Source of the DNA: Salipiger sp. IMCC34102 | Lineage (GTDB): Bacteria; Pseudomonadota; Alphaproteobacteria; Rhodobacterales; Rhodobacteraceae | Direction of reading: 5' to 3' | Length of the DNA stretch: 64,000 nucleotides | Assembly: GCF_004145405.1 (NCBI RefSeq) | Contig: NZ_SELQ01000002.1 | Location: forward strand, 434,001 to 498,000 | Part shown: one piece after another, positions 33,380-38,119 of the stretch | Position numbering within the stretch: the stretch's first letter is position 1 | How the letters are laid out: the number at the start of each line of letters is the position of its first letter | The notes under the pieces: generated by a model | What the model saw: only the letters and a program-made list of their open reading frames with translations | Databases searched by the model: none | What the model was told of the DNA's origin: nothing | Translations under genes and position numbers: made by a program

Positions 33380-33512
33380 GTGATCTCCTTCCGCGTGTTC
33401 GGGCGCGGGATAGCCAAAGCCCCCTTCGCGCACAATGGCCCTGCGCCTTTGCCGATTGGCGGCGGGGGTCCATGCGCATAGCCTAGCCCGAAGCCATCGA
33501 AGGACGAAACCC

Positions 33513-34700
33513 ATGCCAGACGCGCCCCCCGCCCACTACGGCACCGTGACCAAGCTGTTCCACTGGACCACCGCCGCCCTGATCCTCACGCTCATCCCGC
33601 TGGGGCTGATCGCCAGCGACTGGGCCTCCGATAGCGATGCCGCCCTCGCCACCAAGGCCACCCTGTTTTCCATCCACAAGACGCTGGGCGTCACCGTCTT
33701 CTTCGTGGCCCTGGCGCGCATCCTCTGGGCGCTGGGTCACCGCAAGCCCGGGCCCCTGCACCCCGAGCGCAAGGGCGAGACGCTGCTGGCAGAGATCATC
33801 CACTGGACGCTTTACGGCAGCCTCGTGGCAGCCCCGCTGACCGGCTGGATCGACCACGCGGCCACGACCGGTTTCGCGCCGATCTGGTGGCCCTTCGGCC
33901 AGTCCCTGCCCTTCGTGCCCAAGGACCCGGAGATAGCACATCTGTTCGGCAGCATGCACTGGGTGCTGACCCGGATCCTCGCCGCGTCGGTGCTGCTGCA
34001 CGTCGCGGGCGCGCTCAAGCACCATGTCATCGACCGCGACGCCACGCTGCGCCGCATGTGGTTCGGCCAGAGCGACGTGCCGCGCACCGTCTGGCACCGC
34101 ACCCCGATCATCGCCCCCGTCTTGGCCTTCGCGCTTCTCGGCAGCGGTGCCCTTGCCGGTCTCGCCCTGGGCCAGGGAGAACCCGCCCCGCAAGCCGCTG
34201 CCCTCGACGAGGTCGCCTCCGACTGGACCGTTCAGGACGGCACCCTGGGGATCACCGTGATCCAGATGGGGTCGGAGGTCTCGGGCCAGTTCGCCGACTG
34301 GACCGCCGCCATCGCCTTCGACCCGGAGGCCACCGGCGACGCGGGGTCGGTCGAGGTCACGGTGAACATCGCCTCCCTCACCCTGGGCTCGGTGACCGAC
34401 CAGGCGATGGGCCCGGACTACTTCGACGCCGAGACCCACCCCACGGCCACCTTCGCCGCCCCGCTGGTGGCCCAGGACGACGGCAGCTACTTGGCCGACG
34501 GCACCTTGACGCTGAAGGGCACCACCGCCCCCGTCACCCTGCCCTTCACGCTGAGCGTGGACGGCGACACGGCGACCGCCAGCGGAAAGGCGACCCTCGA
34601 CCGGATGACCTACGCCGTGGGAGAGAGCATGGCGGACGAAAGCAACCTCGGCTTCGACGTGCAAGTCTCGGTCGACCTCACGGCCACCCGCGCCGAGTAG
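33513..34700 (+). CDS. Cytochrome b561-YceI fusion protein
   Basis: Residues 1 to about 185 form a four-helix cytochrome b561/Ni-hydrogenase b-type domain (VTKLFHWTTAALILTLIPLGL, SIHKTLGVTVFFVALARILW, ETLLAEIIHWTLYGSLVAAP, HLFGSMHWVLTRILAASVLLHVAGALKHH) with histidines in the helices suitable for b haem ligation. A further hydrophobic segment (about 198-218) leads into a YceI lipocalin-like domain (about 235-395) that would be periplasmic. The likely role is electron transfer to a quinone or other lipid held by the YceI barrel, which is inference. It is divergent from fabD and convergent with a stand-alone YceI gene. Confidence 0.9.
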   Translation: MPDAPPAHYGTVTKLFHWTTAALILTLIPLGLIASDWASDSDAALATKATLFSIHKTLGVTVFFVALARILWALGHRKPGPLHPERKGETLLAEIIHWTLYGSLVAAPLTGWIDHAATTGFAPIWWPFGQSLPFVPKDPEIAHLFGSMHWVLTRILAASVLLHVAGALKHHVIDRDATLRRMWFGQSDVPRTVWHRTPIIAPVLAFALLGSGALAGLALGQGEPAPQAAALDEVASDWTVQDGTLGITVIQMGSEVSGQFADWTAAIAFDPEATGDAGSVEVTVNIASLTLGSVTDQAMGPDYFDAETHPTATFAAPLVAQDDGSYLADGTLTLKGTTAPVTLPFTLSVDGDTATASGKATLDRMTYAVGESMADESNLGFDVQVSVDLTATRAE

Positions 34701-34879: not shown

Positions 34880-35455
34880 TTACTCGGGCAGGCCGGCTTC
34901 CAGCGAGATCATCACTTCGACTTCGTCGCTGATGTTCGGCGCGAAGGCGCCCACGTTGAAGTCCGAACGCAGCAGCGTCGTGGTGGCGTCGAAGCCCAGC
35001 CACTCGCGACCTTCCATCGGCTGCGTGCCCGCCTGGTTCAGCGTCGTGTCGAGCACGACTTCCTTGGTCACGTCGTTCATGCTCAGATCGCCGGTGATCA
35101 ACGCGGTGTCGTCGCCGGTCACCTCGATCGAGGTCGAGGTGAAGGTAACCATGTCTTCCTCACCCGCGCCGAAGAAATCTTCAGACATGAAGTGCTCGAA
35201 GCGGCCTTCCCAGCCGGTCATCATCGACCGCACGGGGAAAGAGACCTCGACGGACGAGTTCGCGGGGTCCTCTTCGTCGAAGTCGATCGTGCCTTCGAAG
35301 CCCGAGAACATCCCGTAGGTGGTCGAGAAGCCGAGGTGCTCGTAGTTGAACACGACCTGGCTGTGACCGGGGTCGAGTTCGTAGGTGACCGGCTCGGCGA
35401 AGGCCGGGGCGGCCAGCAGGGCCGCGGCCGCGGCGGTGGTGTAAAGGGTCTTCAT
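34880..35455 (-). CDS. YceI family periplasmic protein
   Basis: This 191-residue protein has a signal peptide (KTLYTTAAAAALLAAPAFA) followed by a YceI barrel (TYELDPGHSQVVFNYEHLGFSTTYGMFSGFEGTIDFD, then LTGDLSMNDVTKEV-type strands). YceI barrels bind isoprenoids. The ATG at 35455 has AGGAGAG upstream. It faces the b561-YceI fusion end to end, so the locus holds two YceI domains, one tethered and one soluble. Confidence 0.93.
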   Translation of the reverse strand: MKTLYTTAAAAALLAAPAFAEPVTYELDPGHSQVVFNYEHLGFSTTYGMFSGFEGTIDFDEEDPANSSVEVSFPVRSMMTGWEGRFEHFMSEDFFGAGEEDMVTFTSTSIEVTGDDTALITGDLSMNDVTKEVVLDTTLNQAGTQPMEGREWLGFDATTTLLRSDFNVGAFAPNISDEVEVMISLEAGLPE

Positions 35456-35578
35456 TGCATCTCTCCTATGCTTTCCTGGCCGGCAAACTGTGGCACGGGG
35501 CAGGCTTCGGCAACTCGCGATTATGAACAGTCTCTGTTCGCCGCCGACGCAGCACCGTCCCACGGCGGCGAAGCGCCC

Positions 35579-35606
35579 TTGATCCCGGGCCGCGCGCGTG
35601 TATAAG
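35579..35606 (+). promoter_or_regulatory. Candidate sigma-70 promoter for rpsF-rpsR-rplI
   Basis: TTGATC (35579-35584) and TATAAG (35601-35606) are spaced by 16 bases, with TG just before the -10. Transcription would start about 98 bases upstream of rpsF, giving a leader long enough for ribosomal-protein autoregulation. The remaining bases 35456-35578 hold no gene. Confidence 0.6.
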
Positions 35607-35710
35607 CGCCCGACTTCCGCGCGACTTTTGACCTGCGCAGCCTCTCGTGACCGGGACGCGGAAGCCTCATCGCCCGGTCTTTGAAGTGCGCCGAACATGT
35701 AAGGAATGCC

Positions 35711-36064
35711 ATGCCGCTTTATGAGCATGTGATGATTGCGCGTCAGGACCTGTCCAACACGCAAGCCGAATCCCTGATCGAACACTTCGGAACGGTGCTG
35801 TCGGACAACGACGGCAAGCTGGTCGATTCCGAGTACTGGGGCGTCAAGACGATGGCCTACAAGATCAACAAGAACCGCAAGGGCCACTACGCCTTCCTGC
35901 GCAGCGACGCTCCCGCGGCCGCCGTCCAGGAGATGGAGCGCCTGATGCGCCTGCACGACGACGTGATGCGCGTTCTGACGATCAAGGTCGACGCCCACGA
36001 GGACGGACCTTCCATCCAGATGCAGAAACGCGACGAGCGCGACAGCCGTCGCGAGCGCCGCTAA
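35711..36064 (+). CDS. rpsF: 30S ribosomal protein S6
   Basis: This 117-residue protein pairs with S18 in the 30S platform. The N-terminus [14 protein letters not shown] and the central [22 protein letters not shown] are typical of S6. The C-terminal tail is rich in Arg, Asp and Glu. AAGGAATG precedes the ATG at 35711. rpsR follows after 23 bases. Confidence 0.98.
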
Positions 36065-36087
36065 GCCCCGAAGAAAGGACCGCAATC

Positions 36088-37070: not shown

Positions 37071-37538
37071 TCAATACGTCCGAAGTTGCAGCTGCGCGTC
37101 GCAGACATCGCCGTCGTAGGTCCCGATCCAGATGTCGATATAGCCATCCGCCGGCCGCGACAGCGTGATGCGCGGATCGAGGTTTCCGTTGTCGTCGTCG
37201 TCGTAATACCAGGTCGCCGAGGCGGTGTTGATCAGCAGCGCCGCATCGCAGGCGCTGACCACGCTGACCGCCAGCCGGCGCCCGGCCATCCCGGACATGT
37301 CGAACGTGAAGTCGGGACGACTGGTGAAATAGCCCGCGCCCACATCGGTCGCCGGCACGACGTTCGGGCATTTGCGGATATCGTTGCCGCCGCCCGCCTG
37401 CACGTCGTAGGCCAATCCGCCGGCAATCTGCATGCCGGAAATCTTCCCCCCCGGCCCGCTTTGCATGTAGTCCGGGCAGGCCGACGCCGCCCCTCCACAA
37501 AAGCCAAGCGCCAGTCCCGCCGCCACAACACTTCGCAT
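37071..37538 (-). CDS. Secreted small protein of unknown function (tandem paralogue 2)
   Basis: This 155-residue protein has a signal peptide (RSVVAAGLALGFCGGAASA) and an approximately 135-residue exported domain with an ACPDY start, two conserved cysteines (RKCPNV and SACDAALLIN), WYYDDDDNGNLDP and a C-terminal DGYIDIWIGTYDGDVCDAQLQL. It aligns by eye with the upstream gene product (37625-38119). Similar short proteins in this family group are sometimes labelled peptidase S1, but I see no catalytic triad. It is 86 bases after the paralogue. Confidence 0.8.
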   Translation of the reverse strand: MRSVVAAGLALGFCGGAASACPDYMQSGPGGKISGMQIAGGLAYDVQAGGGNDIRKCPNVVPATDVGAGYFTSRPDFTFDMSGMAGRRLAVSVVSACDAALLINTASATWYYDDDDNGNLDPRITLSRPADGYIDIWIGTYDGDVCDAQLQLRTY

Positions 37539-37624
37539 ATGAAAAACTCCCGAATGAATATCACGCTCTCGTGATCTCAAATTCGGGTCGGATTTGTCCA
37601 GCTTTTTCCTGGAAGTTGCGGTTT

Positions 37625-38119
37625 CTACCGTGCCGCCACGGTCGAGACCTGGATCCGCATCCGGCACTGGTCCCCCGGCGCCGTGCCGATCCAGAGCCGT
37701 ACCGGCCCGTCACGCACCGCGCTCAGCACCACCGGCGGCACCATGCCGTTCAGGCCCGGGCCCCGGTGATACCAGTTGCCGTCCGAGCTGAGGATCAGGA
37801 ACTCGCGCGCGCAGCCGCGAACGGGCTTCAACTCGATCCCCAGACCGATCATCCCCGCAAGGCTCAGCTCCAGGGCCGGCTGGGTCGAGAAATGGGCACT
37901 GGTCTCGTGGGCAATCTCGACCTGAGGGCAGCTTTCCAGCGTTGCCTCGCCCCCCGCCAGAACCCGGACCGAGCTGCCCCAGCGCAAGCCGACGCCGGTT
38001 TCGCTCAGCATCGAATTGGCTGCTGCATCGGGGTTCGGACACGCCCCGGCGAGCGTCGGCACCGCCCCCAGTACGACCAGGACGCAGACCGCTTTCAAAT
38101 ATTTGCGAAAAAGGCTCAA
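37625..38119 (-). CDS. Secreted small protein of unknown function (tandem paralogue 1)
   Basis: This 164-residue protein has a basic N-terminus and hydrophobic signal segment (RKYLKAVCVLVVLGAVPTLAGA), then an exported domain that starts ACPNPDA and shares the pattern of the downstream gene: SCPQVEIA, GCAREFLILSSDGNWYHRG and the C-terminal DGPVRLWIGTAPGDQCRMRI. I chose TTG 38119 because GGAG lies 7 bases upstream and no ATG or GTG gives a usable signal peptide. The function is unknown. Confidence 0.72.
   Translation of the reverse strand: MSLFRKYLKAVCVLVVLGAVPTLAGACPNPDAAANSMLSETGVGLRWGSSVRVLAGGEATLESCPQVEIAHETSAHFSTQPALELSLAGMIGLGIELKPVRGCAREFLILSSDGNWYHRGPGLNGMVPPVVLSAVRDGPVRLWIGTAPGDQCRMRIQVSTVAAR

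Follow-up and report, generated by a model that had tools for sequence, protein, structure and literature searches.

The described structures closest to the two proteins analysed here are the jelly-roll domains of Tk-SP, ColG, ColH and KP-43, which we take to be of the pre-peptidase C-terminal (PPC) type, the N-terminal lobes of the bacterial ligand-gated channel DeCLIC, and PliG. One paper names Asp76, Asp123 and Asp124 as the residues whose side chains bind Ca2+ at Site 1 of NTD1 in DeCLIC, and has one of the calcium sites of Tk-SP overlapping this Site 1 (PMC12664993). A literature search listed no paper on the present family among its matches, which does not prove that none exists. Here we describe a pair of adjacent genes in the window, the whole stretch of 64,000 nucleotides from Salipiger sp. 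IMCC34102 that was analysed, and consider it fairly probable that their products, P0001 and P0002, are free extracytoplasmic binding modules of the PPC type, each with two disulphides and representing a calcium-dependent and a calcium-free version, respectively (Table 1).

The ORFs and their translations agreed with the earlier note, which had described two adjacent genes of the same layout; both genes lie on the minus strand, and the ACP start, the four cysteines and the C-terminal DG..(I/L)WIGT..GD.C motif were all present in both proteins. The pair lies between two ORFs that we take, from their sequence and gene order, to be rplI and tig, and within this interval P0002 is transcribed before P0001. 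BLASTP aligned P0001 with P0002 at 30% identity over 121 aa with an E-value of 2e-20, so their resemblance is not due to chance, and the claim that they are strongly diverged tandem paralogues was borne out both by this alignment and by the single fold predicted for them. The TTG start said to hide the "first one" belongs to the first transcribed gene, P0002, where GGAG precedes it at a fitting spacing. Candidate starts were found at the same place in the eight P0002 orthologues of the genus, 24–26 codons before CPNP, and read ATG in four genomes (G149, G154, G150 and G006), TTG in two (G153 and G155) and GTG in two (G151 and G152). A hydrophobic stretch followed by A-x-A before a Cys suggests that both proteins are exported; among the 113 distinct domains of the family (123 rows minus the identical ones), Ala occupied the position of P0001 residue 18 in 91 and that of residue 20 in 94. 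A promoter scan of the locus returned no match, and terminator-like sites numbered 2, with 1.4 expected. Nearby in the window, a plus-strand gene at 33504–34697 encodes a cytochrome b561 protein with a terminal YceI domain (PF01292 and PF04264), and a separate YceI gene (ORF 34880–36085) lies close to it on the minus strand.

Table 1. Features of the P0001/P0002 locus, in window positions.
Feature	Position	Strand	Basis
P0001, putatively exported PPC-like protein with acidic loop	37071..37538	-	ORF and translation, fold prediction; 155 aa, ATG start
P0002, putatively exported PPC-like protein without calcium site	37625..38119	-	ORF and translation, fold prediction; 164 aa, TTG start
P0001 predicted signal peptide, residues 1-20, A-S-A then Cys21	37479..37538	-	read from sequence
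P0002 predicted signal peptide, residues 1-26, A-G-A then Cys27	38042..38119	-	read from sequence, start codon context
P0001 acidic loop D113-D121 (DDDDNGNLD)	37176..37202	-	profile alignment with DeCLIC, conservation
P0001 Asp98 codon, proposed third calcium ligand	37245..37247	-	Asp in 100 of 113 domains; putative equivalence to DeCLIC Asp76
P0002 loop RGPGLNGMV, replacing the acidic loop	37739..37765	-	alignment
rplI (presumed), flanking, convergent with P0001	36327..36974	+	ORF, conserved neighbour
tig (trigger factor, presumed), flanking, upstream of P0002	38247..39590	-	ORF, conserved neighbour

Structure prediction, which the note had set beforehand as the test for unrelated folds, returned the same jelly-roll type for both proteins. 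The model of P0001, predicted from an alignment of 74 sequences, reached a pLDDT of 92.7 and a pTM of 0.85, and that of P0002, for which the alignment held 47 sequences, reached 89.5 and 0.80. VIA-align, in which a Z near or below 8 may reflect merely a common arrangement, gave subtilase and collagenase jelly-roll domains as the ten best solved matches of P0001 (Z 9.8–8.3). Tk-SP (Z 9.8, 3.2 Å, 96 aligned residues; a second entry at Z 9.6, 2.5 Å, 93 aligned) headed the list, followed by the collagen-binding domain of ColG (Z 9.3, 2.6 Å, 94 aligned; further entries at 9.2–8.6), ColH (Z 8.6), the collagenase domain 5sv5, titled pre-peptidase C-terminal (Z 8.4), KP-43 (Z 8.3, 20% identity) and SubHal (Z 8.2); the lower PPC rows were tied with calpain-7 C2-like (8.3), GOLD (8.1) and enterotoxin C-terminal (8.0 and lower) domains. 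The corresponding matches of P0002 were ColH at Z 8.0 and ColG at Z 8.2, the latter level with several other domains, among them the C-terminal one of Clostridium perfringens enterotoxin (8.3). Foldseek placed PliG first for P0001, with an E-value of 2.7e-4 and a TM of 0.62 by target length. A toxin-like reading of the enterotoxin rows was rejected because the fold is common and no sequence relation was found. The models are clear on the predicted jelly-roll fold class of both proteins; the predicted structure of P0001 makes its assignment to the PPC type well supported, and that of P0002 would follow mainly from its paralogy with P0001. The earlier statement that neither protein matches a known domain holds at the level of sequence, in Pfam and NCBIfam, and fails at the level of fold, both being predicted PPC-type jelly rolls. 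What the tools added to the earlier reading was the predicted fold and the way in which the two copies differ.

Neither P0001 nor P0002 had a PF04151 hit in Pfam, and no scanned protein reached the gathering cut-off of this PPC model (25.9 bits), the best relative, a six-domain protein, scoring 20.8 bits. Below the threshold, PF04151 appeared in 4 of 9 relatives at E-values up to 0.19 and in 8 of the 51 A2 members at E-values up to 1, any other family appearing in at most 2; within the close set A4 it was found in 0 of 74 even at E 1. We built a PPC profile from 30 loci with PPC domains above the Pfam cut-off, and hhalign matched it to the family with probabilities of 89.0 (A2), 77.9 (A4) and 89.4 (the 113 rows, score 40.6); in controls made from the 113 rows, none of 60 column-shuffled profiles exceeded a score of 18.6 or 2.9%, and the reversed profile gave 0.7%. 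The A2 set held 51 of the 54 domains found, with L080:4096-4536, L084:10363-10809 and L100 left out and absent from all 113-domain counts; the A4 list excluded rows more than 80% alike or covering fewer than 100 profile positions, which kept 73, and 72 of these were used, an Octadecabacter second copy (L145:3826-4200) being left out. The alignment placed the D..L segment, the acidic loop and the GTYY.V strand of PPC domains onto CDAALLINT, DDDDNG and DGYIDIWIGT of the family, and together these comparisons show homology of the family to PPC at the level of profiles. A PDB sequence search with the single proteins returned none for P0001 and one chance row for P0002. The NCBIfam rows for acetolactate synthase and HPr fell far below their cut-offs in the two proteins, and profile matches to Ika8 and Ika4 (E 1.6e-10 to 0.0053) were rejected because no single stretch passes, the values being summed over repeats of a 16–22-residue "DG..xVW" match.

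The joined forms of the domain in relatives suggest what the free proteins may do. P0001 and P0002 are single-domain proteins with no attached secreted peptidase, and fusions to trypsin were seen in relatives only, the family domain preceding a trypsin-like domain at six loci (L097, L099, L184, L186, L187 and L189). At L194 (1698–4501, minus strand) adjacent trypsin-like and caspase-like proteins each carry it after the catalytic part. Further fusions involved a protein kinase (L181), LCCL (L182), DUF2125 (L100) and an HpiC1-like partner (L084), and arrays, several of which contain proline-rich linkers, comprised three (L080, L082 and L084), four (L193) or six (L182) domains. This pattern of fusions and arrays is that of a putative extracytoplasmic recognition module. 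The kinase at L181 (1004–3322, plus strand) is a Ser/Thr kinase with a C-terminal family domain; inspection of its sequence by eye suggests a coiled coil and a transmembrane segment, so that it may be a receptor kinase. At L182 (386–5014, minus strand) a six-domain and a one-domain family protein each contain LCCL domains, and at L191 (953–1936, plus strand) and L098 (4977–6086, minus strand) Cys-rich repeats of the form CDEPNGLN(L/F)CAWGTD, which had no Pfam match, precede the family domain.

Relatives of P0001 were found in 28 of the 149 genomes of the taxonomic family, those of P0002, at a looser limit, in 26 of the 149, and all nine genus genomes held a family match. By tree, each of the nine carries a P0002-type gene, and P0001-type genes within the genus are confined to the window's genome and G150. 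A profile search of 196 genomes across the order found the family in 48, the highest number of matches in a single genome being 16. The neighbours of homologues, whose inspection the note had proposed, showed tig and rplI recurring beside the family gene: both were near it at 19 of 40 loci, tig only at 1 and neither at 20, and among the best 80 of 147 named loci, some of them on short contigs, to which all named-locus counts refer, 63 had tig and rplI and 66 had tig. One family domain only was present at 69 of the same 80 loci and more than one at 11. In G149 and G150 the next gene from the family member towards rplI encodes a 5'-nucleotidase-like protein, and the genus search returned an additional weak family match in G155 (E 5.7e-4). 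At a Nioella locus (L175, 5365–11320) the interval from tig to rplI is packed with six open frames that together encode nine family domains, one of the products having two domains and another three. P0001 had no match in phages or plasmids, and P0002 none in plasmids.

Four cysteines were present in 103 of the 113 domains, the first two only in 8 and none in 2, and never one or three. Since the pairs are lost together, Cys21–Cys57 and Cys97–Cys146 (P0001 numbering) are likely disulphides; domains with cysteine loss group together within a single region of the tree and may go back to one or two events, so this deduction rests on few events.

The family profile aligned P0001 D113–D115 with DeCLIC D122–D124, in a weak match (sequence E 0.89, i-Evalue of the stretch 22) of which only the register was used. 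In this register D114 and D115 of P0001 would correspond to the DeCLIC ligands Asp123 and Asp124, and D98 would match by position; the register, the ligands reported for DeCLIC and the overlap with the Tk-SP site together make these three residues putative Ca2+ ligands. An acidic loop was found by a loose pattern in 15 of 30 PPC domains and is not universal among them. All three positions were Asp in 97 of the 113 domains, including P0001, and all three are gone in P0002, suggesting that P0001 probably needs calcium and P0002 probably does not. The 16 exceptions comprised the nine P0002-type rows of the genus, six second copies of the Octadecabacter/Pseudooctadecabacter type, among which the tree places G145, and one Nioella domain with Asn at position 98. 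Four of the nine P0002-type rows, P0002 included, lacked all three Asp, D98 was present in none, and D114 and D115 were present in two.

In the tree the two site-loss groups fell into distinct clades, each with full support, but a single clade of all 15 site-loss rows was not rejected (p-AU 0.508), the tree constrained to it being 2.05 log units better. The loop letters differ between the groups, as does the gene order, which runs tig, lost copy, acidic copy in Loktanella and tig, acidic copy, lost copy in the Octadecabacter type; both differences lean towards two separate losses of the site. Other extra copies keep the three Asp (Limimaricola L119, Marivivens L124, the middle copy of L157 and eight of the nine Nioella domains), which speaks against a general rule of site loss in extra copies. 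We raise, as a tentative and somewhat doubtful extension, that the tig–rplI interval in Rhodobacteraceae is a nursery of free PPC-like binders, where at least two lineages, Loktanella and Octadecabacter independently, carry a second copy that has been stripped of the calcium site but retains the cysteines and the core motif, which would yield paired calcium-dependent and calcium-independent secreted receptors for different ligands.

In close relatives, purifying selection acts on the P0002-type genes, although these evolve fast. The dN/dS was 0.036 between G151 and G152, both of the loop-less form, 0.142 between G149 and G154 and 0.186 between G153 and G151, and these low values indicate that the genes are maintained in close relatives; the P0001-type gene of the window compared with that of G150 gave 0.227. 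Between the P0002 of the window and six of its eight orthologues, dN/dS was 0.28–0.85 at high dS, so that constraint was not evident in these pairs. The identity of P0002 to six genus orthologues was 33.6–45.2%, compared with 68.8% for P0001 and its genus orthologue and 76–83% for tig. The distinct partners suggested in the note go beyond these results; a role of P0002 distinct from that of P0001 is plausible, because its three aspartates are gone and selection maintains its counterparts in close relatives.

The predicted fold and size would also suit inhibitors like PliG, in which a small jelly roll exported to the periplasm blocks a protease or a lytic enzyme, with PliG not only the top Foldseek match of P0001 but also scoring Z 7.8 and 7.5 for P0001 and P0002 in VIA-align. 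However, the ten protease and collagenase rows outscore PliG by Z for P0001, and the fusions to proteases and a kinase better fit a recognition module, so that we consider PliG-type inhibitors unlikely. Since PliG, Tk-SP and ColG are grouped as similar structures in PMC12664993, the Foldseek hit does not separate PliG from the PPC reading. PDB sequence searches at E-values up to 10 found no PliG chain, and neither P0001 nor P0002 had a PliG-type family hit in Pfam or NCBIfam, libraries that may have no PliG model. The trypsin fusions of relatives, with the domain on either side of the enzyme, raise another explanation, in which P0001 and P0002 are separated pre-peptidase domains that act in trans, stabilising or targeting a secreted protease encoded elsewhere; some papers reportedly describe collagen binding by the PPC segments of proteases and effects of these segments on catalysis. 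The conserved neighbours rplI and tig include no protease, and the single-domain form is common at the locus, leaving action in trans quite improbable in our view.

The Cys that directly follows A-x-A in both proteins could mark envelope lipoproteins anchored by the first Cys of the mature chain, and 5 of the 113 domains contain a loose lipobox; the other 108, including the two without Cys and the inner domains of longer proteins, do not fit one, Pro follows the Cys, and the joint loss of Cys21 and Cys57 in two relatives suits a disulphide, so that we give lipid anchoring very little credence. That P0002 is a decaying duplicate without function would be consistent with its fast divergence, the lost calcium site and the dN/dS values of the window copy. 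Its counterparts, however, persist throughout the genus, retain the W(I/V)GT core together with all four cysteines and show the low dN/dS values between orthologues given above, and decay seems to us the least credible of these explanations. We infer calcium binding, a binding function, export and disulphide pairing for the pair, and in our preferred reading P0001 and P0002 would be stand-alone PPC-type jelly rolls that are exported out of the cytoplasm, two disulphides stabilising each of them. With no catalytic part, they would serve as extracytoplasmic binding modules, and the domain that relatives attach to trypsin-like or caspase-like proteases and to a kinase would here be made as a free protein. 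P0001 would bind one Ca2+ via Asp98, Asp114 and Asp115, ordering the loop beside the DGxxDIWIGT strand, and P0002, having lost these three ligands, would bind its target without calcium.

An exported family that has no Pfam or NCBIfam model thereby gains a predicted fold, a putative calcium site and a disulphide pattern, and its free proteins are linked to the proteases, the kinase and the repeat proteins in which this module recurs. Because a single genome naturally contains both forms, one having the site and one lacking it, what calcium does in a PPC-like domain that stands alone is directly testable.

Compared with known systems, P0001 is like PliG in being a small jelly roll, and for the inhibition of g-type lysozyme by PliG the parallel is one of fold alone. 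The NTD1 and NTD2 lobes of DeCLIC share with P0001 a similar fold (Z 7.3 and 7.2) and an acidic loop, which in DeCLIC contains known Ca2+ ligands and aligns with that of P0001, but they are part of a ligand-gated channel and their sequence match to the family is weak. PPC domains resemble the family in the predicted jelly roll, the register of Asp, the acidic loop and the G-Y-x-I-x-V strand, and family relatives are likewise fused to serine proteases, whereas the window proteins score below the Pfam cut-off, carry four cysteines and stand alone, and P0002 is without the acidic site.
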